DNA of 64,000 nt, from positions 558,001 through 622,000 of the forward strand of contig NZ_LT706985.1 of assembly GCF_900155645.1 (NCBI RefSeq), in the 5' to 3' direction. The notes under the pieces are model-generated. The model was not told where the DNA came from and searched no databases. It saw only the letters and a program-made list of their open reading frames with translations. This DNA comes from Vaginimicrobium propionicum (GTDB lineage: Bacteria; Actinomycetota; Actinomycetes; Propionibacteriales; Propionibacteriaceae). Of the stretch, positions 1,875 to 60,050 are shown piece by piece (position 1 is the stretch's first letter; each line of letters begins with the position of its first letter). The translations under genes were made by a program, and so were the position numbers.

Positions 1875-2897
1875 TTAGCTCAGTTTTAACATCACTTTTG
1901 ACGAGCCCGTCGAGCGGTCGGCCGCGACACGGAAGGCTTCCACTGCGTCTGCCAGGTCGAATTCGTGGGTCATCAGCGGTGAGACATCAACGTCTTTCAA
2001 CATTTCTAAGGCATCCGTTATCTCGTCAATGAAACGGTAAGAGCCAAGATAATTAATTTCTCGCGTGACAAGTTGGCCGAGTGAAATCGGGGTTTCCTTA
2101 CCCGGTAGATTGCCAACTTGAATAACCGTTCCACCTCGGCGGGTGGCCAGCAACACGTCACCTATCGCCTGCGGGGCGCCAGACGCTTCAAAAGATATTT
2201 CAACACCAACGGGCAGCTTGTCGCCGGCGGCTAAGTGCACCAGATCATCGGCACCCATTCGTCCAGCAATCTCTAGTGCGGTCTTAGATAAGTCCGCCGC
2301 ATAGACAATTTTTGCTCCACGTTGTTTTAAAGTAGCCACAACGAGCGCCCCGACCGGCCCACTTCCATTGACCAAAACGCGCTTTCCACTAACATTACCA
2401 GCGCGATTGACAGCATGAATGGCGACGCCAAGAGGCTCGGCTAGGGCTGCTTCTTTGGTAGACACGCCGTCTGGGATTGGTCGCAATTGGTCAGGACGCA
2501 CTATGCGGTACTGACTAAACCCGCCTTGCTCATGGGGCAAAAACGCCGCAGAGCCGAAATAACGCACCTCAGGCCAAAGATTAGTTCGCTCCTTAAGGTC
2601 AGCGGGCATTGTGTGATCCCCGACCAGCGTCGCCGGGTGGATTGTCACCGGCTCGCCGACATTAATGCCGGCAACATTCTTGCCAACTTCGGCCACTTTT
2701 CCACCGACTTCGTGACCAAGAATCAAAGGCTCACGCAACTGAGCCGTACCAGACAGTCCCGTTCTCACGTAAGCCAGATCGGAGCCGCAGATGCCACCCC
2801 ACTCCATTTCTACGAGCACATCGTCTGACCCACAGACCGGATCTGGCACATCATCAATACGTAAATCATTGGCGGCGTGTACTACAACGGCTTTCAT
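1875..2897 (-). CDS. Medium-chain dehydrogenase, L-idonate 5-dehydrogenase-like
   Basis: A 340-residue zinc-type medium-chain alcohol dehydrogenase that would oxidise a sugar acid or polyol with NAD(P). Visible features are the catalytic zinc ligands in GGICGSD (near residue 35) and LGHEVGG (near 62), a FGSAAFLPHEQGGFSQY segment very like E. coli IdnD, an AEPLGVAIHA motif, and a Rossmann GSGPVG. The four-cysteine lobe that holds structural zinc in IdnD and many relatives is absent: that stretch has no cysteine. The ATG at 2897 is preferred over an upstream TTG because GAAGGAG lies 7 nt before it. It follows the Nramp-like gene by 27 bases and is probably co-transcribed with it. Confidence 0.8.
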   Translation of the reverse strand: MKAVVVHAANDLRIDDVPDPVCGSDDVLVEMEWGGICGSDLAYVRTGLSGTAQLREPLILGHEVGGKVAEVGKNVAGINVGEPVTIHPATLVGDHTMPADLKERTNLWPEVRYFGSAAFLPHEQGGFSQYRIVRPDQLRPIPDGVSTKEAALAEPLGVAIHAVNRAGNVSGKRVLVNGSGPVGALVVATLKQRGAKIVYAADLSKTALEIAGRMGADDLVHLAAGDKLPVGVEISFEASGAPQAIGDVLLATRRGGTVIQVGNLPGKETPISLGQLVTREINYLGSYRFIDEITDALEMLKDVDVSPLMTHEFDLADAVEAFRVAADRSTGSSKVMLKLS

Positions 2898-2924
2898 AAC
2901 TTTCTCCTTCAAATCAACAGATAA

Positions 2925-4340
2925 TCAAGACATCACTTTTGCGATTTGATCCACAAGTCCCAAAATGCCAACCCCAAAGACGGAAATTGACGAAATGGCT
3001 AGATAGATATTCCACGGCAGCTTATCTTTGATTCTGTCGTCGGTTTCAGTTCGGTTCAGATATATGGTGGCCACGACCACTGCCATCAAGAAGATCGCAT
3101 TGCCGATACCAGCCAAGATGATGAGCGCCAGCGGGGACTTGAAGACGATGGCGGTCAGACCCCAAATAATGGGTAACACAATTACTAAAGCGCGCTGCCA
3201 GCGATTGCGCGCGTGAGTTTCTTTCCAGTTAAATACGTTAAAGACCGCCAAAGTGTTGGTGATTTGACGTGAGAAGCCCGGCGCGTTGGCGAGTATGGTC
3301 TTGAATAACGCGATCGCTGCACCGACCAGAAATACGGTGGCAGCTCCGGCCCCGATAGTTGAGCTGAATATCTGCGAAATAACCTCCAGCACCTTGTTGC
3401 CCTTAGGTTCGAGACCTTGTGGATGCAAAACCGCAGCACCCAAAATATAGAAAGCCGCAGTTGAGGCAGTATATATAACCCAGGACACCCAGGCGTCAAT
3501 CTTCATGACCTTGATCCAGCCACGAGCACGATTAGCCCAATCTTCGGAGCCGTCATTCGGCCCAGTCCAAGCGGCATAACCTTTCTCTACAACCCAATAT
3601 GTATAGGCGGTGATTTCGCCCGCACCAACACCCGTCATGCCAAACATGCCCAAGGCGAAACCCATCGCGCCAGCGGCGATGCGGAAGGTCATGCCGTAAC
3701 CAAGGTCACTTGCCGTCCATTTGAATGGCGTGAATTCAACCCCGATGACCATAGCCACCACACCCACGGTAACCAGCACCACCAGCACAGTGGCGACTTT
3801 TTCGACGATGTCATATTTATTCGCCGCATGGATTGCGATTGTCAGCACCACCATGACGAGAATCCAGAAACCGAGCGAGGTTGTCGAAAGGGGGTCTGCA
3901 CCGATTGGCAAAACCATCGACATGGCGAGTGCCCCTGCACCAAGGACACCACCTTGACCGATAATAATCTGCAAAAACATGAGCAGACCGATATAGGAAA
4001 TCCAGCCGCGCTTGCCGATTTTCGGCGGCACCTGGTCATAGCCCGTCATTGCTGTCTTCCCGGTGGAAATTGACCACCTAGCCAACTCAATCTGGACGGC
4101 GACCTTAACGAAAGTGGATAAGAAAATCAGCCACAACAGCATGAATCCAGCCTCAGCGCCAAGCGTGGTCGCCGTCAATAACTCGCCGGAGCCGACAACA
4201 GCCGCACTCGTCACCATTCCAGGGCCAAGATAACGCAAACTAGCACCAAATGTTTTTGGCGGCTCGAGGATATTTTTTGGATCCAAAATATAGGGATCAT
4301 TGGCGGGTCCAGCTAGCGCTGAATTACTAGTGTCGCTCAT
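2925..4340 (-). CDS. Nramp-superfamily transporter lacking the canonical metal-binding motifs
   Basis: A 471-residue integral membrane protein with about 11-12 helices and an overall Nramp layout. The first helix reads GPGMVTSAAVVGSGE where Mn/Fe Nramp transporters have a DPGN motif. The sixth helix region reads FGMTGVGAGEITAY rather than the usual MPHN type. The residues that coordinate Mn/Fe in characterised members are therefore not evident, and the substrate may be something else. The ATG at 4340 is chosen because AAGGAG precedes it; upstream in-frame codons lack such a site. The downstream dehydrogenase on the same strand hints at a shared sugar-acid role, which is inference. Confidence 0.75.
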   Translation of the reverse strand: MSDTSNSALAGPANDPYILDPKNILEPPKTFGASLRYLGPGMVTSAAVVGSGELLTATTLGAEAGFMLLWLIFLSTFVKVAVQIELARWSISTGKTAMTGYDQVPPKIGKRGWISYIGLLMFLQIIIGQGGVLGAGALAMSMVLPIGADPLSTTSLGFWILVMVVLTIAIHAANKYDIVEKVATVLVVLVTVGVVAMVIGVEFTPFKWTASDLGYGMTFRIAAGAMGFALGMFGMTGVGAGEITAYTYWVVEKGYAAWTGPNDGSEDWANRARGWIKVMKIDAWVSWVIYTASTAAFYILGAAVLHPQGLEPKGNKVLEVISQIFSSTIGAGAATVFLVGAAIALFKTILANAPGFSRQITNTLAVFNVFNWKETHARNRWQRALVIVLPIIWGLTAIVFKSPLALIILAGIGNAIFLMAVVVATIYLNRTETDDRIKDKLPWNIYLAISSISVFGVGILGLVDQIAKVMS

Positions 4341-24098: not shown

Positions 24099-27000
24099 AT
24101 GAGAGGCTTAGATGAAATTGAACTGTATCTTTTGACGTGCGCGCAACTGATGGGGGCTAAAGCGAGTGATGATGGAGATAGAGCTCGTTTAGTTAGAGAA
24201 AAAATCTCGGAAATTCAAGGGAACTATTCTCTTCAATGGTATTACCGGTATTACCTGCATGAAGATCTGCAATACGGCGACCTGCATGAAGATCTGCAAT
24301 ACGACGGTCCTGCAAATTCATTGCCTGCAGCAAAGCTAAATCTACTGAAAGCGTTTTTGCAACAGGCGTCGCGTCTGACGGGGGAAGCTGATGTGTTCCC
24401 ACTATTGCCTGAAGCTAAATTTCTACGAGAAAACCTTGATTCATGGAAGAATCAAGCTCAAGGCATCTCAGAGGAGCTTAGCAACAATCAGGAAGAATGG
24501 TTTCTAGGTGAAAATCTATTAAACGACTCACAGGTAAAAGCAATCGCTAAAGCCCTCGCTTATCCGATTTCTTTTGTGCAAGGCCCTCCCGGCACCGGGA
24601 AAACGATGATGATCGTTCGCCTTATCGCATTGGCTGTCGAAAAGGGGATGAAAGTCGCAGTTGTTTCCACCAACGGAACTGCTGTCGAAAATGTTTATAA
24701 GAAGCTCGAAAACATTTGTTCTGGTGGGGAAGAAAAATACGGTAGCCGTCTTTACGAGGCTGCAAAGAAAAGCGTCAAGTTAGGCAACTCAAACGAGCGT
24801 TGTAATGGAGCCTCGTATGTCTATCCATGGTTTAAGGTGACCTGCGGAAAAGGAAATGCAGGGAGACCATTCGTTTCCTTTAAAAAGGAAGAGAACGCGC
24901 CGCATGACTATGAAGGAATAGACACCCCGAATGACAAGGGGCAGCGCTCAGGATGGGAGAAGAGGCAGCGGTTCAAGGACTTTACCGACGATTTTCCGGT
25001 CGTGTTGTGCAAGATTCACTCACTTAAAAAGTGTTTCATCGACGGGGCTTTGCCAGACAATAAATTTGATCTTGTCATTGTAGATGAAGCATCACAAATC
25101 GATTTGATCGTCGGGCTAGTTGCGTTGAGTTCCGCCAAACGCATGGTTGTTGTTGGCGATGAAGAACAGCTCGCCCCGATATACAAAAATCGCGCAGATC
25201 TTATCGGGCGTCCTTGGCAACAGAGCAAAGACCCGCATGAACCCGTATGGAAGGAAGACAGCTGGTATACCGCTCCCCGCTGGGAAGAAGGCCGGAAGCA
25301 ACTTCAGAATTTCAAAGGTTCTGAACTGGAGATCTGCCTTGATGGAGACAGAAACAGCACTCGCCAGGACGAAAGTTTTCTCACTGTCACGAAAAAAGTG
25401 TTTGCGCAGCTGTATGGAACTCAGGATGCTGAAACCTTCCTCAATGTTCATTATCGATGCCACCCAGGGATCTTTGGTTTTTCGAAAAAGCTCATTTACG
25501 AAAAGGCAAAGTTCACGTGTGACTGCCAAAGGGAAAAAGCTAGGGCAGATAGTAAATCTATCCGTCTCCCCGAGCAAAAGAATTGGCCTGTATATGCAGA
25601 CGTTGTTTGCCCCATATCAATTACGTGGTACTCAGGTGACTATCGGGAGAAGCTAGCTTCACAAGGAGATCCGAAAGAAAGTGCAAGCCCACAGAATAAA
25701 CGCCAACTAGAAATCTTGAAATTCGATCATCTTCGTCACGTAGCAGAGTTGCTGCAAAAAGGTGCCGATGAAGGGAAAGGCGCGACTGTCTGTGTTCTTT
25801 CTCCTTATAAACGGCAGGTGGAAGAATTTTCGAAACTGCTAGCTGAGTTACTTGAGGCCTCCAACAGCTGGAATGGGGATGAACACAAAGAATCTGAAGA
25901 AGGTGAGGGTACTCTACCGGAGCTTCCGTCAGGATTCGAATTCACATTAAAACAGATGAATGATAGAGTTAAACGCCTTACCGTTCACAAAGCTCAAGGC
26001 CAGGAATATGACGCGGTTTATCTGCTCCCAGTCGACGATGGCCAATGGGAAGGCCAATGGAGTCAGGGAAAAAGGTTAATCAACGTCGCCGTATCTCGAG
26101 CGAAGAATGAATTACATGTAATCCTGTCTACGAAAATGTTGGATTACGAAAGACAAGTTGAGCTCACAGGCAGTTTTACGCCAGTAAAGTACCCCGTGCC
26201 TAAAGATCCAAACGAGGGGGAGCTCTACTTACGACTACTAGAACGATACGTTCGTTGTACTCAAGGAAAAAATTATCAGCACGAACTATTCGGGATCCGC
26301 CAAACAAGCGTTCGGTCGATCCTCGATGATCTGACCCGCTACCAAACACCTGACGATAATGACAAAGAAGGATCAGCCCCAGAAGATTGCGTGCAAGTTG
26401 AGCTGGCAAAAGTGTTGGCCAAAATCAATTCGTCTCTAGATACCGAAGTCGAACTTTACCGAGAAGTCGTAATCGGTAAAAAAGAAGACGCTAAGGCGGG
26501 GTCTGAAAACACCGAAGATCCTCACAGAGCCCCGGATATACAAGAAGAAAAAAATCAAGCCCATCTAACGCTGGCCGGAGAAATAGTCGACGCCAAAAAG
26601 TTGATTGACAAGGTTAGAGGAAAAAGGTTCGATTTTTGCTTGGCCGACAAGAAAACAAAAAGAATTTTACTCATCATCGAAGTAGATGGCGAAAACCATC
26701 GAAATCCAAATAATGAGAAAATCAAAGAAAGCGACAGATTAAAGAACGAATTCATCGAAAAAATCGGCGGAGAGGTCTTGAACCCAGAGAACTCTTCCAC
26801 CCAACCAAGCAAGTATCCGATTCTGCTCAGAATCCCGACGGACGGAACCTCCAAATGGGAGACGGATGATCTGCTTAAAACTGGACGCAACCAACAACGA
26901 GCAACTTGTGTAGAACATCAAGATCTCAATCTAGATACCCTAAAGCTAGCTAATTTTGAGGACTACCAAGCCCGCACGATAGAAGCGTTGATCAAATTAG

Positions 27001-27461
27001 CTCAGAAGAAAGCTCACGAAAATCCCGTAACCCTCGTCGTTGAGCCGGAAGAAGAAAACGAGACTGGCCCTTCACGGGAAGGAGGCGAATTCAAACGGCT
27101 TCTCCAGTTCCAGGAAGAGTGGAAAAAATTGGAAGCTAAGTGGGGCGAAAAAGGAGTTCCAGTTCCCGAAGTTATGAAGTGTGACGCTGTCTTCGCTGAA
27201 GTGGAGCAACCTTGGATGAATTTGCAAAAAGCCCTAGAAAAACAAGGGTTCTTAGAGAAATGCATTGACGAAGAGAACCGCTGGAGGCCAACGCCAGCAG
27301 GTAAAGCACTCGGATTACGTAGGTACGTAGATCAAGACAAAACAGGCAAAAAATTTTCCAACCTCGAATACTCCAGAACGGCCAGGGTTTACTTGCGCTA
27401 TAACTTACATTCAATTCTCGGGGATCCTAGAAAAGAACGCTTGCAACCCGATAATCGCTAA
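24099..27461 (+). CDS. SF1 (Upf1/DNA2-type) helicase fused to a DUF2726-like nuclease
   Basis: A 1120-residue protein. The helicase core has Walker A QGPPGTGKT (about residue 162), LVIVDEASQID (about 326), VVVGDEEQLAPI, NVHYRCHPGIF, VHKAQGQEYDAVYLLPVDDG and INVAVSRAKNEL (motif VI), the set of Upf1-like SF1B enzymes. From about residue 770 a DUF2726-type PD-(D/E)XK domain follows: GKRFDFCLADKK and LLIIEVDGENHR with D, E and D in nuclease positions. A C-terminal winged-helix-like region ends WRPTPAGKALGL. Near residue 55 nine residues are duplicated (LHEDLQYGD). It stands alone in a defence-rich stretch, so an antiphage role is plausible but inferred. Confidence 0.82.
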   Translation: MRGLDEIELYLLTCAQLMGAKASDDGDRARLVREKISEIQGNYSLQWYYRYYLHEDLQYGDLHEDLQYDGPANSLPAAKLNLLKAFLQQASRLTGEADVFPLLPEAKFLRENLDSWKNQAQGISEELSNNQEEWFLGENLLNDSQVKAIAKALAYPISFVQGPPGTGKTMMIVRLIALAVEKGMKVAVVSTNGTAVENVYKKLENICSGGEEKYGSRLYEAAKKSVKLGNSNERCNGASYVYPWFKVTCGKGNAGRPFVSFKKEENAPHDYEGIDTPNDKGQRSGWEKRQRFKDFTDDFPVVLCKIHSLKKCFIDGALPDNKFDLVIVDEASQIDLIVGLVALSSAKRMVVVGDEEQLAPIYKNRADLIGRPWQQSKDPHEPVWKEDSWYTAPRWEEGRKQLQNFKGSELEICLDGDRNSTRQDESFLTVTKKVFAQLYGTQDAETFLNVHYRCHPGIFGFSKKLIYEKAKFTCDCQREKARADSKSIRLPEQKNWPVYADVVCPISITWYSGDYREKLASQGDPKESASPQNKRQLEILKFDHLRHVAELLQKGADEGKGATVCVLSPYKRQVEEFSKLLAELLEASNSWNGDEHKESEEGEGTLPELPSGFEFTLKQMNDRVKRLTVHKAQGQEYDAVYLLPVDDGQWEGQWSQGKRLINVAVSRAKNELHVILSTKMLDYERQVELTGSFTPVKYPVPKDPNEGELYLRLLERYVRCTQGKNYQHELFGIRQTSVRSILDDLTRYQTPDDNDKEGSAPEDCVQVELAKVLAKINSSLDTEVELYREVVIGKKEDAKAGSENTEDPHRAPDIQEEKNQAHLTLAGEIVDAKKLIDKVRGKRFDFCLADKKTKRILLIIEVDGENHRNPNNEKIKESDRLKNEFIEKIGGEVLNPENSSTQPSKYPILLRIPTDGTSKWETDDLLKTGRNQQRATCVEHQDLNLDTLKLANFEDYQARTIEALIKLAQKKAHENPVTLVVEPEEENETGPSREGGEFKRLLQFQEEWKKLEAKWGEKGVPVPEVMKCDAVFAEVEQPWMNLQKALEKQGFLEKCIDEENRWRPTPAGKALGLRRYVDQDKTGKKFSNLEYSRTARVYLRYNLHSILGDPRKERLQPDNR
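24253..24306. repeat. 27-bp in-frame tandem duplication in the helicase gene
   Basis: Two adjacent 27-bp copies (24253-24279 and 24280-24306) differ at one base. They add nine residues (LHEDLQY plus two) to the N-terminal part without breaking the frame. Confidence 0.92.
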
Positions 27462-28859: not shown

Positions 28860-29777
28860 TTAAACATTTTGTATCAAAATGAGCGTCCTAGTGGAGGATA
28901 TTTGAGCGAATGCGAGCGTCAAAGACTCAAACTTCTGCGCATCACCCTGGGAGATATCACCCAGCTGTTTAAGCCAGATCTGGGACTCCTCAGCGGTCAT
29001 GCCGACCCCCATCAGAGTCTGAGTGCCCTTAGCCAGATCCTCCATACCAAACGGAGTATGGGCAGCCTCGAGCTTGAGGTTGTTGACTAGTTTTTGGGCT
29101 TTGGCTTGATCTCCCAGCATCGTGGTAAACGATGTGGTGTATTGCTCCATGCGGGCGTTGTACTCCACACCATCTTTCATCGCACCAGCAAAGCTCTTAA
29201 CGATAGAACCGATGGCATGCCCGATAGCCTTAACCCCACCAATGATCGCCTCGGCTGCGAGGTTGGCTTTGAGCACGTCACCGAAGATGCGGGTCTTGCC
29301 CGAGGTGTAGTCCATCTCAGAGCCCAACTCATCCACGGCGTTTTCTAGATGGGCAGTGTCTTTGGCGGCAGTCTTGGCGTCGTCCCCGGCTCCGTCGGCC
29401 TCATCACCGAATTTCGACAAGGCAGCATTGTCGTCCTTCAGCTCGCCCTCAAGGTCGTTCAGGGTGGCTTGAGCGTTATTGAGCTGGATCCGCCAATTCT
29501 TCGTTCGCGAATCATTCTCCCCAAAAGACGAGGCAGCATTCTCAAGTGCAGACCGCAGTGTTTCAACCTTGGCTCGCTGCGCCTCAATCTCCTTAGCCAA
29601 CACCTGATTCTTAGCCGTCAAAGAGGAAACCGAGACCTCGTTGTTATCAAACGCCGAAGCCGCCAGCTTCATCTCCGAACCCAAAACCCGCATTTCGCGG
29701 TTTATGTCGGTGATCGCGCGCTTAAACTCCCGCTCAACCTCCAAACCAATCTTCAAACCGAAACTGGAGTCAGCCAT
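28860..29777 (-). pseudogene. Phage tail tape-measure protein, N-terminal fragment
   Basis: The first 305 residues of a tape-measure protein, which normally exceeds 700 residues. It has FGLKIGLEVEREFKRAITDI, a long coiled-coil region, then LGDQAKAQKLVNNLKLEAAH and QLGDISQGDAQKFESLTLAF. It breaks off after AQISST into foreign sequence GTATCAAAATGAGCGT (forward strand), a motif also found at an IS21-like end at about 41620. It marks a decayed prophage tail module. Confidence 0.82.
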
Positions 29778-29859
29778 AATGGGCTCCTTTGAGTGAAAAA
29801 AATTTGGGTATTAGGAAGTTCTTTTAGCCCCTGGAGCGTGTAAACTGATCCTCACCAGT

Positions 29860-29904
29860 ACCGGCTCGCCCTCCCGCCTTCGGTGGGATGTGGTCAGAGC
29901 CGGT
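29860..29904 (+). ncRNA. Hairpin leader of the Abi gene, candidate RNA antitoxin
   Basis: ACCGGCTC (29860-29867) pairs with GAGCCGGT (29897-29904), and the inner arm CCGCC/GGTGGG closes on a TTCG loop. The hairpin lies 30 bases before the Abi start. A matching hairpin with the same ACCGG/CCGGT ends precedes the second Abi gene (59075-59106). Conserved structured RNAs upstream of abiF-type genes are known, and some act as RNA antitoxins of HEPN nucleases; assignment here is by position and shared structure only. Confidence 0.5.
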
Positions 29905-29933
29905 CTTCGCATATATCGGTATGCGGGGTGAAG

Positions 29934-30878
29934 ATGGCGGGTAAACCCTGGACAAGCATCAACAGGCAAATCCAGATACTGGCTGAGCGGGGGTTGAGCG
30001 ACGCGCCTGATTTTGAACGTTATTTGTCTCAGGTGGGCTACTACCGGCTTTCAGGCTACACATACCCACTACGCCAATACGCAAGCAAGAAACAAGACAC
30101 TAAACAAGAAGGTAATCCGCGTCGGCGTCTTGATTCTTTTGTGCCAGGCGCACGAATGAGCCACGTTATCGCGCTTTATGAGTTTGACGAGCAGTTACGC
30201 CTAGCGTTGTGGCAGGCGCTTTCAAAGCTAGAGATAGCCTTACGCTTCGATATCGGGCACACCTTCGGTAAGACTGACCCGTATCTGCACATGCATGTAA
30301 GCAAGCTGTGGAAAACCGGGTCGCGGCGTGCCAGAGCCCAGAAATTCGTTAAGAAACTGGCTGACACCCAGCAGCGTTCTAGCGAGGAATTCGTTAAACA
30401 CCACCATCTGGCCTATCACGATCAAATGCCGATCTGGGTCATCACCGAGATCTTAGAGTTCGGATCTTTAGCCAACCTGTATTCGCTGGCTCCTTTTGAG
30501 CAACGACGGCAAGTGGCAGACCAATACCAGGCCAGATCTGACGAATTGGAATCATGGCTACGAGTCATGAATTACCTACGTAATATTTGCGCACACCACG
30601 CCAGACTATGGAATCGGCAAGTAGTCATTCGACCCTCAATTAAATACCGCAGGAAAGACCCTAACCTGAGTCCTTGTTTAGGTCGCGACGACAAAATATT
30701 TGCCAGCCTCACCCTGGCCGCATACCTGCTAAAGCACAAGAACCTAACCGGGCAGATAAGCCTTATAGCCTCCGCGCTATCTAATTTCCCACCCGACATT
30801 CCACAATGCCAGATCACCGATACCGGTGCGCCACGACACTGGCAAACCCTTCCGATCTGGTCAAAATACTGCCCCTAA
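29934..30878 (+). CDS. Abi_2 (AbiD/AbiF) family HEPN protein
   Basis: A 314-residue abortive-infection protein. It begins MAGKPWTSINRQIQILAERG and has YLSQVGYYRLSGYTYPLR, ALYEFDEQLRLALWQALSKL and the HEPN RNase motif RNICAHHARLWNR (R-x4-H) near residue 215. HEPN nucleases cut RNA, and Abi_2 proteins stop phage growth at the cost of the cell. The ATG at 29934 is chosen because GGGGTGAAG lies just upstream. It sits between decayed phage tail genes on the opposite strand, as a moron-like cargo gene that stayed intact. Confidence 0.87.
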   Translation: MAGKPWTSINRQIQILAERGLSDAPDFERYLSQVGYYRLSGYTYPLRQYASKKQDTKQEGNPRRRLDSFVPGARMSHVIALYEFDEQLRLALWQALSKLEIALRFDIGHTFGKTDPYLHMHVSKLWKTGSRRARAQKFVKKLADTQQRSSEEFVKHHHLAYHDQMPIWVITEILEFGSLANLYSLAPFEQRRQVADQYQARSDELESWLRVMNYLRNICAHHARLWNRQVVIRPSIKYRRKDPNLSPCLGRDDKIFASLTLAAYLLKHKNLTGQISLIASALSNFPPDIPQCQITDTGAPRHWQTLPIWSKYCP

Positions 30879-31108
30879 ATCCCCACCGGAATCACATCAT
30901 CAATAAACCACGCCCTCGCGGGCTGTGCCCTGCCAGTTTCGATGCGCCAACAATCCACCAGATCAAGCAACTCACCAAACACAGCAAACTCGACCTCGGT
31001 GCGAAACATGTTGAGGTGGGCTAGCCCGACATAAACCAGCCTGGTGAAGGCCGCCTCATCACTATCTAGGACTCGACCTTGTTCTGGTCTTTTGAGGCCG
31101 GTTCTCGG
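30875..31108 (-). pseudogene. Second tail-assembly chaperone-like phage fragment
   Basis: A reverse-strand open stretch without a start codon reads GLKRPEQGRVLDSDEAAFTR, then LVYVGLAHLNMFRTEVEF and ends WFIDDVIPVGI. It overlaps the end of the preceding phage frame in the +1 frame. This is the arrangement of tail chaperone pairs (G and GT), where the second is made by ribosomal frameshift. It also overlaps the end of the Abi gene by four bases. Confidence 0.45.
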
Positions 31109-31430
31109 TAGCGATAGCTCGTCTGGTGTCTCGTTGTAGAGCTTCGCTGATCGCTGCCCGATAATCAGCTAAATCAGCTGGCACGGTGAGCAGCTCCACC
31201 GCATCCTCACTCAACTCAGCACGCCGGTTATCGGGGTGGGTCAGGTTGTGAATCTGTACTGACTGATTGGCTAGTAGCGTGATGAGCCAAATCACCTCAC
31301 TCAGCGACTTATCCACATCCTCGGAGGTTTCCAGGGCATCGCCTAGATGTTCGAGTCCGCCATAACGCTACGCAATTAACCGAGTCACGAGGGTCGTCAG
31401 GTTTAGTTCGCAGTCTTGGTCGTCAATACT
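31062..31430 (-). pseudogene. Tail-assembly chaperone-like phage gene with an internal amber
   Basis: Reading the reverse strand, DDQDCELNLTTLVTRLIA is followed by TAG and, in the same frame, RYGGLEHLGDALETSEDVDK, then SEVIWLITLLANQSVQIHNL and AVELLTVPADLADYRAAISE. This pattern is typical of the small protein coded before the tape measure in Siphoviridae of Gram-positive bacteria. The internal stop and lost 5' end indicate decay. Confidence 0.6.
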
Positions 31431-54596: not shown

Positions 54597-56519
54597 ATGC
54601 GCACCTTAAGTATCGACATCGAAACTTACTCGCCAATCAACCTCACCAAAGCCGGAGTCTACAAATACTGTAACCACCCTGACTTCAAGATTCTCCTTTT
54701 CTCCTACGCGATCGACAGTTGCACGGTGCGCACAGTGGATCTAGCATCTGGAGAGCAACTCCCCGCAAAGATTCTTAGAGCACTTGATGACCCTGCCGTG
54801 GTTAAGTGGGCTTACAACGCCGCTTTTGAACGCACCTGCCTCAGCGCCTACCTCGGACGACGACTTGATCCAGCTGGTTGGCGGTGCTCCATGGTGTGGG
54901 CGGCAACCCTTGGCCTGCCACTTTCTCTTAAAGATGTCGGCAAAGTGCTGAATCTCGATGCTCAAAAGATGGATGAAGGTAAAGATCTCATCAAGCACTT
55001 CTGCGTACCGGATGACAACAGCCATCAGCGTCTGCCCGGCAGCGACCCGGATGGCTGGAGGCTCTTTAAGACCTACAATGCCCGCGACGTGGAGGTAGAA
55101 ACCCAGATTAGGAGCAAGCTCGCCAACTTCCCAGTACCTGATTACCTCTGGGAGCAGTATGAAGTGGATCAGCGGATTAATGACCGCGGTATCCGTATCG
55201 ACACCACACTGGCCGCAAACGCTATCGCTATTGACGAAGAACACCGGGCGCAAGCACTCGCCCGTGCGCAAGAACTCACCGGTCTGGATAATCCTGCCAC
55301 ACCATTGCAGCTACAAGAATGGCTGAAACAGCATGGCTGCCCGATAGAGTCGATGGCTAAAGAATCAGTCGATGATGCCCTGGCATATGCCAGTGGCGAG
55401 GTGAAAGAAGCTCTCGAACTGCGCCAGGAGTTATCGCGCTCATCCGTGGCAAAATACCGCAAGATGATGGATGCCGCCTGCATCGACCAAAGGGCGCATG
55501 GTCTGCTCCAGTTTTATGGGGCTAACCGTACAGGGCGGTGGGCAGGCCGTCTTGTGCAGGTGCAAAACCTACCTCGGAACTATCTGCCCGACCTTACCCA
55601 AGCACGTGGCTTGGTGCATGACGGTAACGGTGAGGCACTCGATATGCTTTATCCTTCCGTGCCCGATACTCTCAGTCAGTTGATTCGCACCGCATTCATC
55701 CCCTCGAAGGGTCACCGGTTCATCGTCGCCGATTATTCGGCGATTGAGGCGCGGGTGCTGGCGTGGCTTGCTGGTGAGGAAACCACGCTTGCCGCGTTCA
55801 AGAACGGTGAGGATCTTTATTGCGCGACCGCTTCGACGATGTTTGGTGTGCCTGTGGAAAAGCACGGAGTCAACAGTGAGCTTCGGCAGAAAGGAAAAAT
55901 CGCTGTTCTTGCTTGTGGCTACAACGGCTCTGTAGGTGCGCTCAAAGCCATGGGCGCTTTGAAGATGGGACTAAGCGAGGACGAGTTACAGCCCATCGTG
56001 GACGCTTGGCGGCAAGCCAACCCTAATATTGTGCAGCTGTGGCACGAGGTCGATAATGCCGCTACCAGAGCAATTAGCACCAGCAGACCGCTCACGCTGC
56101 GCAACCTGGGTTTCGAGAAGAAATCTGGGATGCTCTTCATCACTCTGCCAAGCGGTCGGCGTTTGGCATATGTGAAGCCAGGTATTGGCGTGAATCGTTT
56201 CGGAGGCACCTCGATTACTTATTGGGGTCAGGGAGTGGCTCGCAAGTGGCAGAAACTAGAGACTTACGGTGGAAAACTGGTCGAGAACATCATTCAAGCC
56301 ACCGCCAGAGACCTCCTCGCCGAAGCCATCACCCGCATTGAGAATGCCGGTCACCGGATCGTGATGCATATTCACGACGAAGTCGTCATCGACGAACCCA
56401 TCAATTCCGGCACCACCGTTGCTGACATATGCACCCTCATGAACGAGCTACCCCAATGGGCTAAGGGTTTACCGATTGATGCAGCCGGGTACGAATGCGG
56501 CTTCTATCAGAAGGATTAG
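54597..56519 (+). CDS. Phage family A DNA polymerase
   Basis: A 640-residue polymerase. The N-terminal 3'-5' exonuclease starts RTLSIDIETYSPINLTKAGV. The polymerase motifs are A (IVADYSAIEARVLAWLAGE, about residue 375), B (RQKGKIAVLACGYNGSVGAL, about 430) and C (IVMHIHDEVVID, about 595). There is no 5'-nuclease domain. It is the replicative enzyme of this phage-like module. Confidence 0.92.
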   Translation: MRTLSIDIETYSPINLTKAGVYKYCNHPDFKILLFSYAIDSCTVRTVDLASGEQLPAKILRALDDPAVVKWAYNAAFERTCLSAYLGRRLDPAGWRCSMVWAATLGLPLSLKDVGKVLNLDAQKMDEGKDLIKHFCVPDDNSHQRLPGSDPDGWRLFKTYNARDVEVETQIRSKLANFPVPDYLWEQYEVDQRINDRGIRIDTTLAANAIAIDEEHRAQALARAQELTGLDNPATPLQLQEWLKQHGCPIESMAKESVDDALAYASGEVKEALELRQELSRSSVAKYRKMMDAACIDQRAHGLLQFYGANRTGRWAGRLVQVQNLPRNYLPDLTQARGLVHDGNGEALDMLYPSVPDTLSQLIRTAFIPSKGHRFIVADYSAIEARVLAWLAGEETTLAAFKNGEDLYCATASTMFGVPVEKHGVNSELRQKGKIAVLACGYNGSVGALKAMGALKMGLSEDELQPIVDAWRQANPNIVQLWHEVDNAATRAISTSRPLTLRNLGFEKKSGMLFITLPSGRRLAYVKPGIGVNRFGGTSITYWGQGVARKWQKLETYGGKLVENIIQATARDLLAEAITRIENAGHRIVMHIHDEVVIDEPINSGTTVADICTLMNELPQWAKGLPIDAAGYECGFYQKD

Positions 56520-57064
56520 TTGATACTCCAGAGCGGGTTCTGCTGCCAGTTTTCTGGAATACCGAGATGGCTCGGTGGTAGTGGCTCAAGAATTGGGTAA
56601 CTAGCTATCACACTAGAAAGCAGAGCCGGGTCACCGATATTAAGCTTTACAAGCAAGTATTGGACAATTGTGAGCTGACCAAACAGACGGTTCATCACCG
56701 AAGCTACAGCATCCAATTCAGGATGTGCCCCAATCTTCGGTAGGCGCGGCTTGAGAGCATAAACCCTGTTAAACATACGCGCATGGTGAGCCGAATAGTT
56801 ACGCAAAATATTGAGACTTTTCAGCCAGGAACCAAACTGTGCCCCGTTCAAACCCACCCGACCAGCAATAGTCTCGCGCACCGGCATTGGCGCTAACTGA
56901 AACAAGTATGACAGTGAGCCCCAGTCCATCACTTCTACCGCTGCCCAAATCGGCAACTGGCCACCATATTTCTGGTTATGGTGCATCACGAAATCTTCTC
57001 GCGACCCCGTTAATTCTTTACGATACCGCTTCAGCCACTGCTCATATTTCCACATGAAACAAGT
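56516..57064 (-). pseudogene. C-terminal part of a split Abi_2 HEPN gene
   Basis: It begins inside foreign sequence and becomes Abi-like from WKYEQWLKRYRKELTGSRED. It then has QLPIWAAVEVMDWGSLSYLF and the HEPN motif LRNYSAHHARMFNRV (R-x4-H), ending IPENWQQNPLWSI. About 60-70 residues of the middle are missing compared with the intact Abi at 29934-30878. The N-terminal half lies 1.7 kb away at 58785-59040. It overlaps the polA stop by four bases on the opposite strand. Confidence 0.85.
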
Positions 57065-57116
57065 GAACACTAAGTATGTCAAGTAGCTACGTTCGTATGT
57101 AGGAACATATCCATGA

Positions 57117-57153
57117 ACTTTTTAACGATAGCTTAAGGTTATCGTTAAAAAGT
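57117..57153 (-). terminator. Terminator at the edge of the AT-rich island
   Basis: A perfect 14-bp stem ACTTTTTAACGATA (57117-57130) with TATCGTTAAAAAGT (57140-57153) and a 9-nt loop, with a T-run within the stem in both directions. It follows the hypothetical gene ending at 57303. Confidence 0.75.
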
Positions 57154-57302
57154 ATTACCTCGACAAACTGAAAGTTGGGCGTTTATTCCCCCGCAAAACT
57201 TCGGTTAAAATCCCAAATAGAAATCCCTTGTCGATTCCACTCATTATTTCGTCTCTCAGAAAACGCACCAGATTACTGAGAGTTTCACCTCTATGACTTA
57301 GT

Positions 57303-57986
57303 TTATTTCTCATAGTAAAATGCTCTGCTATACAAAAAATGTATATTAGCGTCATTTAGATAATCTTCATATTTTCTTTTTTTTCCATCATCTACATATC
57401 TATCATAGCATTCGTACAGTATTCTATAATAGTTCAGTTGATTTATCAATCTCTCACTAACCGTTTTTTCTTTTAATATATCCTCACATTTTTGAAAACA
57501 ATCAACTATTGTATTATCTTCAATTATGCATCCATCTGGAAAATGATGTGCCCCCCAACCTAAAATATCCAAGTATGAATCAAACAGCAAATCAATTGTT
57601 TTCTGGTCACACTTCATATTTGAATAAGCAATCTCAAGGTATTTTACTGCCGCTTGATATCCCTGCTTATGATTTCTGAACAACTCATAATACCATCTGC
57701 ATTCCGGCATTTTCTTCTCTTCGCAACGTGGTGTAATCCACATTAGGATATACTCTTTTAATTCGTATGGAATGTCTGCATTTCCCCGGTCTTTCAAAGT
57801 ATCCCATACATCACTATCACAATAATCCGAAAGAAATTGTGTTAATATTTCATCTTGATTTTCGTCTGACATTTCTCTTAGATGACCAACGATTGCTTGC
57901 ATTTCTTTGTTTGCAAGTTTTTTTAACCCGTTATGATAAATATCCAAATATTTATATAAATTATTACTGAAATCACAATACACCAT
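57303..57986 (-). CDS. Hypothetical protein of immunity type
   Basis: A 227-residue, largely helical, acidic protein starting MVYCDFSNNLYKYLDIYHNG, with YELKEYILMWITPRCEEKKM and DSYLDILGWGAHHFPDGCII later. I do not recognise the family firmly. Size, charge and the SMI1-like neighbour suggest an orphan immunity protein from a polymorphic toxin system of Firmicutes, which is inference. AAGGAG precedes the ATG. Codon use is strongly AT-rich. Confidence 0.6.
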   Translation of the reverse strand: MVYCDFSNNLYKYLDIYHNGLKKLANKEMQAIVGHLREMSDENQDEILTQFLSDYCDSDVWDTLKDRGNADIPYELKEYILMWITPRCEEKKMPECRWYYELFRNHKQGYQAAVKYLEIAYSNMKCDQKTIDLLFDSYLDILGWGAHHFPDGCIIEDNTIVDCFQKCEDILKEKTVSERLINQLNYYRILYECYDRYVDDGKKRKYEDYLNDANIHFLYSRAFYYEK

Positions 57987-58292
57987 TCTGTCTCCTTAAA
58001 CCTCAAGGCTTATGTACTGTTCGTCATATGACTAACAAAAGAATCTATCCCCAAAGTGCATTTATTTTATCTGGCAATAATTCTATCTCTGTCCCAAGCA
58101 CAGCAGCATCATCTTCATTTCAGCCCAGTTTTATAGGTCTAAATCGTTCCTCTTTGGATAACTTCTGACGTAACATCTTTTCTCGGTTCTCAAGGTGTAT
58201 TCTGTTATTGATTAGGCGTTATCTGCCCGATAAACTGGAAGTTAGCAAGTACACATTATATCAATATGAACTTCACGAATATCCATTATTGG
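57987..58292 (-). pseudogene. Intergenic stretch with a decayed gene end
   Basis: Between about 58209 and 58045 the reverse strand reads NRIHLENREKMLRQKLSKEE, then RFRPIKLG, TGA, and in the same frame NEDDAAVLGTEIELLPDKIN before TAG. It looks like the end of another immunity-type gene broken by a nonsense codon where tryptophan is likely. Nothing else is recognised here. Confidence 0.4.
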
Positions 58293-58763
58293 CTATTTAA
58301 TTTGATCGTCAAGCTCAATACCCTGTTCCGCTAAACCAAAAACTAACTCCTTAAAACTTTCTGCAATAATTTCTAAATCATCAACCGATGTCACATATAC
58401 ATCATGTGGCAAAACAACAATTTTGTCTGTTTCCTTTAAAATACAAACTAAACTTCCATCACCTAAACCGCCAATAGGAAAAACAGTATTATTTGATATG
58501 TTGCTTTCTTCGTCGTCGCTATAGTTTGCAATAAAAGCAGGGTATTCACAGCCTAATTCCTCTAAAGTGAAAATCCATGGATCAACAAAATGGCAGCCAC
58601 CAAATTCCTTGAGTAAATATCGATATTCTGACGGAATTGGTTCGAATTTGTTTTCAAACTCAGATATGTCTTTTTCGGACTCCGGGTGATATTTTCTGTG
58701 CGTGTCAGCCATAACGCTATAAGCTTTTCTTAGTAATTTAATCTCTGCTTTTGTTAATTCCAT
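58293..58763 (-). CDS. SMI1/KNR4-family (SUKH) immunity-type protein
   Basis: A 156-residue protein. MELTKAEIKLLRKAYSVMAD is followed by PIPSEYRYLLKEFGGCHFVD and IFTLEELGCEYPAFIANYSD, then VFPIGGLGDGSLVCILKETD, the SUKH pattern of I-P-x-x-Y/F and W/G-rich turns. SUKH proteins neutralise contact-dependent or polymorphic toxins. No toxin gene is adjacent. GGAG lies 8 nt before the ATG at 58763, just inside the junction with the Abi fragment. Confidence 0.78.
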   Translation of the reverse strand: MELTKAEIKLLRKAYSVMADTHRKYHPESEKDISEFENKFEPIPSEYRYLLKEFGGCHFVDPWIFTLEELGCEYPAFIANYSDDEESNISNNTVFPIGGLGDGSLVCILKETDKIVVLPHDVYVTSVDDLEIIAESFKELVFGLAEQGIELDDQIK

Positions 58764-58776
58764 ATGCTTTCTCCAA

Positions 58777-59040
58777 TCAATACACAGCATCAATATCAGC
58801 AAGAGTTGTGCCAGGAATAAACACATCACGGCGCACGCCATCTGCCCCTATCTCACGCCACGAGTACCAATGCCCGGAAAGCCGATAATAATTCACTCGT
58901 TCCAACAGATTCCGTGCCAACTGATCGGACTCAATCACCATCCCGCGAGAGCGTAACAAGTTGATCTGCTCGCCGTGCGTCTTGAACGCCTTACCGCTCT
59001 CGGTAGCGCTCTGCACTTGTCGGCTCTGCTGCGGGCTCAC
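58777..59040 (-). pseudogene. N-terminal part of the split Abi_2 HEPN gene
   Basis: From a GTG at 59040 with AAGGGAGG upstream: KAFKTHGEQINLLRSRGMVI, then NLLERVNYYRLSGHWYSWRE and FIPGTTLADIDAVY, where the Abi frame is cut at the foreign junction and TGA follows. In the intact relative the next residues are ALYEFDEQLRL-like. Without the C-terminal HEPN motif this piece cannot be a nuclease. Confidence 0.85.
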
Positions 59041-59074
59041 GTCGGCACCTCCCTTGAGCCTAGAAATGATGAGG

Positions 59075-59106
59075 ACCGGCCCTGGACCCTCGCGGGCGGA
59101 ACCGGT
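59075..59106 (-). ncRNA. Hairpin leader of the split Abi gene
   Basis: On the reverse strand ACCGGTTCC (59106-59098) pairs with GGGCCGGT (ending at 59075) around a GC-rich middle. It lies 34 bases before the GTG. Ends and position match the hairpin at 29860-29904 before the other Abi gene, which supports a conserved RNA element. Confidence 0.45.
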
Positions 59107-59246
59107 CTTGATGCATCAATCATAACCCATATCCCGTTAACAGCCAAGCAAATTTCTCGCCTGTCCTATCAGGTTTTGCCTGCCTATTTTCAAAGTCACG
59201 TTTATATTTCACTCTTCTCGAAGCCCTCCTTGTAGAGGGTCAGCTC

Positions 59247-60050
59247 ATGGCTCTCACCTACAAACTATGGGAAGGAGAGCTATTGACCGGCTCCACACTA
59301 CAAGTGTTCACCAACAGCCAATTCGGCCAAATCCGCACCATCACTAACGATGGAACCATCATGTTCTGCGGCCGTGACGTCGCGAGCGCTTTGGGATATA
59401 CAAATCTGAATAAGGCAGTGCAAGATCATTGCAAGGGGGTTCCATTTCGTTACCCCCTTGAAACGTCAGGTGGGATTCAACAGATTCGTTTCATCACTGA
59501 AGGGGATGTTTATCGCCTGATTGTCTCAAGTCACCTGCCGGGCGCGGAACGTTTCGAGAGATGGGTGTTTGATGAGGTGCTTCCATCGATTCGTCGGACC
59601 GGTTTGTACGCGATTGATGAACTACTCGACAATGATGAGCTGCTCGAACAAGCGCTCACGCGTCTACGTGCCGAGCGTGTCAAGCGTCTTGCTGCTGAGC
59701 AGGCGTTGCTCGAGGCAGCACCGAAGCTCTCCTACTACGATATCGTGCTGCAATCGCCGTCGTTGATGCCGATTACTGCTATCGCCAAGGACTACGGGCT
59801 GAGTGCGAAGAAACTCAACCGACTGTTAGCTGATGAACATATCCAGTTCAAACAGTCAGGCATCTGGTACCTGTACGCCGAGTATGCGAAATGTGGCTAC
59901 ACCCAATCCAAAACCCACCTGCTGGAAAGCGGCAAGACGGTGATGCACACGTATTGGACGCAGAAAGGCCGCCTGTTCATCTATGACCTGTTGAAAAACC
60001 GCTGCCACATCCTGCCGGTCATCGAACGACAAGCAGGTGAAACCAAATGA
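59247..60050 (+). CDS. BRO-N / KilA-C phage antirepressor
   Basis: A 267-residue protein. BRO-N domain: FGQIRTITNDGTIMFCGRDV, ASALGYTNLNKAVQDHCKGV, FITEGDVYRLIVSSHLPGAE and FERWVFDEVLPSIRRTGLY. KilA-C domain: ITAIAKDYGLSAKKLNRLLA and HTYWTQKGRLFIYDLLKN. Such antirepressors switch temperate phages to lytic growth. It follows a short hairpin CCCTC-cttgta-GAGGG near its start and overlaps the next gene by four bases. Confidence 0.9.
   Translation: MALTYKLWEGELLTGSTLQVFTNSQFGQIRTITNDGTIMFCGRDVASALGYTNLNKAVQDHCKGVPFRYPLETSGGIQQIRFITEGDVYRLIVSSHLPGAERFERWVFDEVLPSIRRTGLYAIDELLDNDELLEQALTRLRAERVKRLAAEQALLEAAPKLSYYDIVLQSPSLMPITAIAKDYGLSAKKLNRLLADEHIQFKQSGIWYLYAEYAKCGYTQSKTHLLESGKTVMHTYWTQKGRLFIYDLLKNRCHILPVIERQAGETK

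Follow-up and report, generated by a model that had tools for sequence, protein, structure and literature searches.

The 64,000-nucleotide stretch of DNA analysed here (the window) encodes an intact Abi_2 (AbiD/AbiF) HEPN protein preceded by a structured leader RNA, and comparison with relatives gives good support to the proposal of an earlier note on this DNA that a HEPN Abi protein stands here behind an upstream RNA of the abiF kind. With a probability of roughly three in four, we take the locus to encode an AbiF/AbiD-type HEPN RNase, carried by a prophage, with a class-specific inhibitory hairpin RNA at the head of its own transcript.

The gene (Abi gene 1) occupies 29934..30878 on the plus strand and encodes 314 amino acids from the ATG at 29934, with a GGGG ribosome site at 29925-29928, five bases 5' of the start codon. 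Its R-x4-H HEPN motif, RNICAH, lies at residues 216-221 (codons 30579..30596, plus strand), and its residues R216, N217, A220 and H221 do not vary in either of two alignments, one of 22 and one of 44 proteins; the description of the gene as intact, with its motif and a good ribosome binding site, thus held. The protein matches Pfam Abi_2 with an E-value of 4.8e-49 (167.6 bits against a curated cut-off of 25.6) and the PADLOC AbiD profile with an E-value of 2.2e-56 (189.6 bits), and a profile of 44 relatives, at positions 1-302, finds PbAbiF (8vz6_A) with an E-value of 3.3e-68. When an AlphaFold2 model of the protein (mean pLDDT 93.8) was searched with Foldseek, the single PDB match at E <= 0.001 was 8vz6, the PbAbiF dimer with its ncRNA, with TM scores of 0.80/0.84 and an E-value of 2.4e-14, as expected of the AbiF fold. 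Domain score, R-x4-H motif and fold therefore all place the protein in the AbiD/AbiF family (Pfam Abi_2).

Abi gene 1 sits between two ORFs on the minus strand, a tape measure ORF of 305 aa (28860..29777; PHROG tail length tape measure, E 1.7e-43) and a tail protein ORF of 84 aa (31062..31316; PHROG tail protein, E 9.1e-08), and both are short, in agreement with the earlier picture of decayed tail genes flanking it on the other strand. By eye, ORFs resembling the 84-aa tail ORF adjoin loci L028 and L234. Elsewhere in the window, a 1120-aa helicase-like ORF (24099-27461) gives a partial match to PADLOC MkoA (E 1.1e-39).

Upstream of the gene, the hairpin at 29860..29904 (plus strand) consists of an 8-bp outer stem with the arms ACCGGCTC (29860-29867) and GAGCCGGT (29897-29904), an internal loop G/UCA and an inner stem. 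The sequence 29858-29904 folds with -29.9 kcal/mol (z -4.4), and none of 200 shuffles folded as low. The arms and fold described previously were thus confirmed; given that the window holds 99 perfect 8-bp stems with loops of 10-40 nt, the stem alone is not above chance, and it is the conservation that constitutes evidence. A -10-like box, TAAACT, lies at 29841..29846 (plus strand), 19 nt before the hairpin. Of the 102 non-identical labelled leaders (see below), 74 have a TANNNT beginning at -17 or -18 relative to the motif and 86 have one beginning within -24..-14, against 25 of 406 control windows; the box is less regular in classes RF (6/13), F (10/16) and B (3/5). From a box at this set distance we infer a transcription start shortly upstream of the hairpin, by a few bases, so that the transcript probably begins with it. 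No U-tract was present in the bases right after the window hairpin, and in place of tandem RNA repeats of the type III kind there is a single leader match before each Abi gene of the window. A possible second hairpin holding the GGGG ribosome site (29906..29928, plus strand) was dropped, being seen in the fold only and absent from the L124 leader.

The earlier note had proposed a search with Rfam abiF models, and this was negative for both window leaders: RF03085 (gathering score 37 bits) has no match in the window at that score, none in the two leader stretches at E-values up to 10, and none across the host genome, with stricter filters, at E <= 0.001. The same model is found in 9 of 197 genomes of the host's taxonomic family, and four of the eight loci fetched hold Abi_2. 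A covariance model, R1, was made from 29 class A actinobacterial leaders with the window's own left out. R1 matches the leader of a second Abi gene at 59 kb with 62.3 bits (E 1.6e-18 in the window), which assigns that leader to class A, and matches the leader of gene 1 (29853..29913, plus strand) weakly, with 16.7 bits (E 0.0072 in the window and 0.225 in the genome); the latter was filed as class A'. In the 2.0-Mb genome R1 gives four hits up to E 1, all of them leaders of the AbiF-like kind, namely two of class A (at 1.26 Mb and at 59 kb), the A' leader of the window, and a solitary leader in locus L205. In other genomes 13 hits of 24-36 bits without Abi_2 nearby may be due to chance, so the 16.7 bits of the window leader alone prove nothing. 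The outer arms and a GGUCA are common to the window leader and those of L124, L234 and L205, while their inner stems differ yet still pair.

Relatives of the protein are encoded in 47 of the 197 family genomes, the host's own included. In genome and viral contigs, single-protein searches confirmed no relative, and an alignment query did find relatives. By eye, a hairpin lies shortly 5' of the gene in 28 of 29 listed family relatives (in L031 the leader is obscured by N) and in about 66 of 80 relatives' loci from genome contigs. The 14 loci without one are all from Pseudomonadota, and several of them start right behind another ORF; proteobacterial Abi_2 genes at L084, L092, L100 and L109 have no leader and directly follow an ORF that looks HsdS-like by eye. 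Regular expressions labelled 114 of 176 leaders, many of the 62 unlabelled ones showing a hairpin by eye, and the labelled leaders fall into classes A (60), F (17), RF (13), C (9), A' (5), B (5), E (3) and D (2).

Leader class and protein clade match closely, as a tree of 81 of the 173 proteins shows. The tree comprised 26 class A proteins (filtered at 80% identity and limited to that number), the remaining labelled proteins with six near-copies removed, and eight chosen unlabelled proteobacterial proteins entered as 'none'. On it 8 changes suffice for the nine labels (eight classes and 'none'), which is the minimum, compared with a mean of 49.7 for shuffled labels, none of 200 shuffles being as low; class F taken alone needs 3. 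The protein of gene 1 groups with that of L124 (support 100), and the pair is sister to class A (support 96).

While pairwise identity among class A proteins has a median of 51% and a minimum of 39% (1653 pairs), and stands at 35% to the window protein, both 12-nt halves of the leader are exact in 56 of 58 class A leaders selected by a pattern that allowed three substitutions. Judged from these alignments the class A leader is near-invariant in Actinomycetota, in part as a selection effect, given that the patterns allowed at most three substitutions. The internal-loop bases are fixed as firmly as the stem (in rows from the same pattern). In the inner stem, three of four pairs show changes on both sides, and the covariation score of 0.182 compares with 0.074 for shuffled alignments, none of 500 reaching it; the number of pairs changed on both sides (3 versus 2.1; 162/500) and that of further pair types (5 versus 6.0; 477/500) are not above shuffles. 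The outer stem is nearly fixed inside class A and changes in step between the classes compared, which excluded class C rows, the exceptions being one non-pairing arm variant each in A and E.

The second Abi gene of the window, on the minus strand, is broken. Behind its class A leader RNA (59066..59113) follow an N-terminal piece (58777..59040; PADLOC AbiD E 3.1e-12; aligned with the intact gene of L096, from Varibaculum cambriense), an insert (57051..58774) and a C-terminal piece (56516..57050; Abi_2 profile positions 93-184, E 9.8e-24). Relative to L096, 169 bases are missing and are replaced by the 1.72-kb insert, which has 34% GC and carries a SUKH gene (SUKH_6, E 2.5e-13) and a 227-aa ORF. 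The window thus holds one intact Abi gene of two, and the proposed RNA-controlled HEPN toxin pair retained by selection finds no support as a pair, there being no working one. The claim that the same hairpin ends recur at 59 kb is right for the outer five pairs, ACCGG/CCGGT, and wrong for the full arms ACCGGTTC/GGGCCGGT. Gene 2 is adjoined by a phage DNA polymerase gene (54597..56519, plus strand; PHROG E 4.6e-146) and, on its other side, by a BRO/ANT antirepressor gene (59247..60050, plus strand; Pfam ANT and Bro-N). Since L124 keeps its A' gene between polymerase and antirepressor, at the position of gene 2, the matching positions point to a phage slot for such cassettes.

Two further Abi loci occur in the genome. 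Abi gene 3, at 1.36 Mb, is intact and has a class C leader; near it, at 3328-3395 of L002, begins an ORF that by eye resembles a tape measure gene. Abi gene 4 (L203, 1.26 Mb) has a class A leader followed by a 73-aa, internally deleted Abi remnant, with one copy of a transposase-like ORF on either side. The solitary leader at genome positions 1599454-1599513 (L205, 1501-1560) scores 19.5 bits with R1 (E 0.026), is identical to the window leader in 54 of 62 aligned columns, folds with -25.4 kcal/mol and has a TACGCT 18 nt upstream. No Abi_2 was found within 3 kb of it, and the host genome therefore holds a toxin-less copy of the window RNA; its neighbours look, by eye, like a Fic-like ORF and a corrin-biosynthesis-like ORF.

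Leaders with no Abi gene behind them were also found in viruses, 'no Abi_2' being judged here within the stretch fetched around the leader. The strict class A pattern finds 18 stretches in IMG/VR, of which 8 precede Abi_2 (coverage being broken in four of the 8) and 10 do not (one of the ten, L214, having only 373 nt downstream). All ten orphans also fold with the inner stem, which the pattern does not require. They represent eight flank types, in three of which a tRNA gene on the same strand is at most 5 nt away (tRNA-Met in two cases; L219 is placed between tRNA-Trp and tRNA-Asn); at a base rate of 0.25%, taken from 91 loci, and with flank clusters treated as independent, this proximity has a P of 9e-7. 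One of these tRNA-adjoining orphans, L216, is distantly similar to Gordonia phages. A relaxed pattern gave 26 stretches, eight more than the strict one, among which L234 is a true orphan. L227, L228, L229, L231, L232 and L233 show no inner stem by eye and were set aside as chance matches, with no tRNA in the 400-500 bases scanned around them; L230 was not matched in the follow-up scan.

In the L234 prophage a class C leader, a class A' leader and a class A leader follow one another in tandem; by eye, a -10-like box precedes each of them, and no Abi_2 was found with the three. Beside them, at 2470-3117 (minus strand), is a 215-aa ORF with an RNRAAH, perhaps another HEPN protein judging from the motif. 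The A' pattern gave 12 stretches, 10 of which precede Abi_2, the others being L234 and L238, where the leader is cut off by a transposase-like ORF; in L123, from the same contig, a transposase-like ORF lies at 3300-4000 between the A' leader seen in L238 and the Abi gene. The class C pattern gave eight, of which two precede Abi_2, one is the L234 orphan and one (L285) is too short; L283, L284, L286 and L288, without an inner stem by eye, were rejected as chance. The class F pattern found none. BLAST of a class A hairpin against phages returned weak hits only, and those in the Curtobacterium phages Olliecat and Squircle (E 0.2) and Buldak (E 9), located 5' of the tail assembly chaperone, were not counted; in L225 and L226, from Curtobacterium phages, the intergenic sequence ahead of that chaperone shows a weak similarity. 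Against plasmids there was one clear hit, in Arthrobacter (E 3e-11). In bacterial genomes, 20 class A hits of at least 50 bits with sufficient sequence downstream divide into 13 before Abi_2, three before broken copies, one before a class C gene and three with none; the 20 are part of 35 R1 hits, apart from the 13 of 24-36 bits and two at contig ends. In this search the stretch in L265 scores 11.5 bits and is on the opposite strand, and coverage in L266 is limited to residues 2-226.

For the RF03085 type, a pattern describing one form of the motif finds at least 120 viral stretches. Eighty were fetched and three were too short; of the 77 judged, among the matches listed, none precedes Abi_2 or has it anywhere in the fetched stretch. 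As a control, an Abi_2 profile made without RF-class proteins finds 13 of 13 RF-class proteins. The loci among the matches listed form 44 flank clusters, 42 with enough sequence downstream, and for three clusters, with 18 loci, a tRNA gene is no more than 20 nt away (P 2e-4, clusters again treated as independent). The RF03085 gathering score is passed by 19 of 20 sampled orphans, L368 falling short. Nine other viral contigs have an RF leader paired with Abi_2, so the orphan rate is not 100% and the 0 of 77 should not be read as a general rate. BLAST with the RF hairpin matched 51 phage records, down to E 3. Of 11 phage loci fetched, eight pass the gathering score (Aeromonas PZL-Ah8, PT2 and T7-Ah; Salicola CGphi29; Rhizobium RHEph21; Synechococcus S-CREM1; Mycobacterium Thibault and ThreeRngTarjay), and Caulobacter RW, Rhizobium Pasto and Pseudanabaena Pan2 score below it. 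RF03085 RNAs are thus present in T7-like phages. None of the eight passing loci has Abi_2 in its 4-kb stretch, and only that of S-CREM1 is annotated, between tRNA-Asn and tRNA-Gly.

In the mechanism that we favour for the window system, the promoter just upstream would start the transcript a few bases before the hairpin, and much of the transcription would probably yield the short RNA alone, some reading on into the Abi gene. The short RNA would bind the HEPN dimer and hold the enzyme inactive; an infection that stops host transcription or removes the RNA would free the enzyme, which would then cut RNA and so halt the cell. We infer RNA binding, inhibition and toxicity by analogy with AbiF_Cd and PbAbiF, and the ncRNA of AbiF_Cd is reported to neutralise its toxin in cis and in trans (PMC12373285). 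An inverted repeat arisen by chance, as the abundance of comparable stems in the window might suggest, or a mere terminator is a very improbable account of the hairpin, since relatives keep the arms, the loop bases, the promoter spacing and the gene order. A leader confined to cis action, attenuating the Abi mRNA or switching its translation and not binding its own protein, has more to be said for it: the hairpin lies between promoter and gene, the 15 bases 3' of the motif average 46% T (114 leaders), and the 5'UTR of AbiD1 has been reported as a translation control (PMC12373285). We nevertheless consider such a role unlikely given that the internal-loop bases of class A are as constant as its stem within what the pattern admitted, that leader class follows protein clade, and that copies exist without a nearby Abi gene, one of them in the host genome.

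These orphans suggest, by analogy, that phages, and the host bacterium too, maintain antitoxin RNAs that stand alone and would act against these toxins. We propose that the toxin-less RNAs of phages, including T7-like ones, are AbiF-type antitoxins that would serve as decoys, holding host HEPN Abi enzymes inactive while an infection proceeds; prophages may stack several specificity classes, as in L234 (C, A', A), in a slot that holds the toxin in relatives, and a bacterium, like the host with its L205 copy, may hold a solitary copy too. Taken as a whole, class stacking included, we regard this proposal as evenly balanced between true and false. Toxin-less copies of the motif are at hand in phages (10 of 18 class A stretches; 77 of 77 RF loci judged among the matches listed), RCd22 is reported to act in trans (PMC12373285), a property that a decoy needs, and, where an orphan all but adjoins a phage tRNA gene, as some do at a distance of a few bases, the RNA could be released in the course of tRNA maturation. 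The toxin-less leaders could instead be idle relics of lost Abi systems. The host genome does have leaders before split or deleted Abi genes, and two loci hold a leader of one class before a cassette of another (in L028 a class A leader in front of a class C gene, in L124 a weaker class A copy of 48.2 bits ahead of its own A' leader). Against decay speak the inner stem kept by all ten strict class A orphans unasked by the pattern, the sampled RF orphans that still reach the Rfam gathering score, the six orphan flank types within 20 nt of a tRNA gene, and the occurrence of such RNAs in T7-like phages. Loss is real for the broken and displaced cases and fits less well with the tRNA-adjoining and T7-like copies; as a general account of the orphans we think it rather doubtful.

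The present results extend RNA-leashed AbiF systems, which are proposed kin and ancestors of Cas13 (PMC12165695, PMC12737573), to an actinobacterial group with leaders invisible to the Rfam abiF model. If the orphans are decoys, then AbiF-type defence would be common enough for unrelated phages to keep an RNA of about 37 nt against it, the leader classes would be orthogonal toxin-antitoxin specificities, and the decoys of a phage would tell which Abi class it meets. No such reading of AbiF-type orphan RNAs was found in the literature searched.

Among the closest known systems, AbiF of Clostridioides difficile with RCd22 (PMC12373285) shares the Abi_2 HEPN protein, the prophage setting, the order of promoter, RNA and gene, and the R-x4-H motif; RCd22 is described as having two RF03085 motifs and a terminator, whereas the window has one hairpin of a class that RF03085 does not detect. 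PbAbiF (8vz6) has the same fold over nearly the full length at 28% identity in the Foldseek alignment, a likeness of the proteins only. The type III toxin-antitoxin system ToxIN would work in a like manner, with an RNA antitoxin upstream of an RNase, and its toxin is of another protein family than Abi_2. Repeated RNA units make up the ToxIN antitoxin (PMC8860590), in contrast to the single hairpin of the window system. The abiF sRNA of S-CREM1, one RF03085 RNA amid the tRNA genes of a lytic cyanophage, is given no antitoxin-decoy reading in the available part of its source text (PMC9964418). The orphan leaders, as proposed here, would join other phage mimics of host defence RNA: PhiTE carries a ToxI-like RNA (PMC10853763), and the Racr RNAs of phages act against CRISPR by mimicking its repeats (PMC10651486). 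Those RNAs mimic ToxI or CRISPR repeats, whereas the orphan leaders resemble the leaders of AbiF-type systems.
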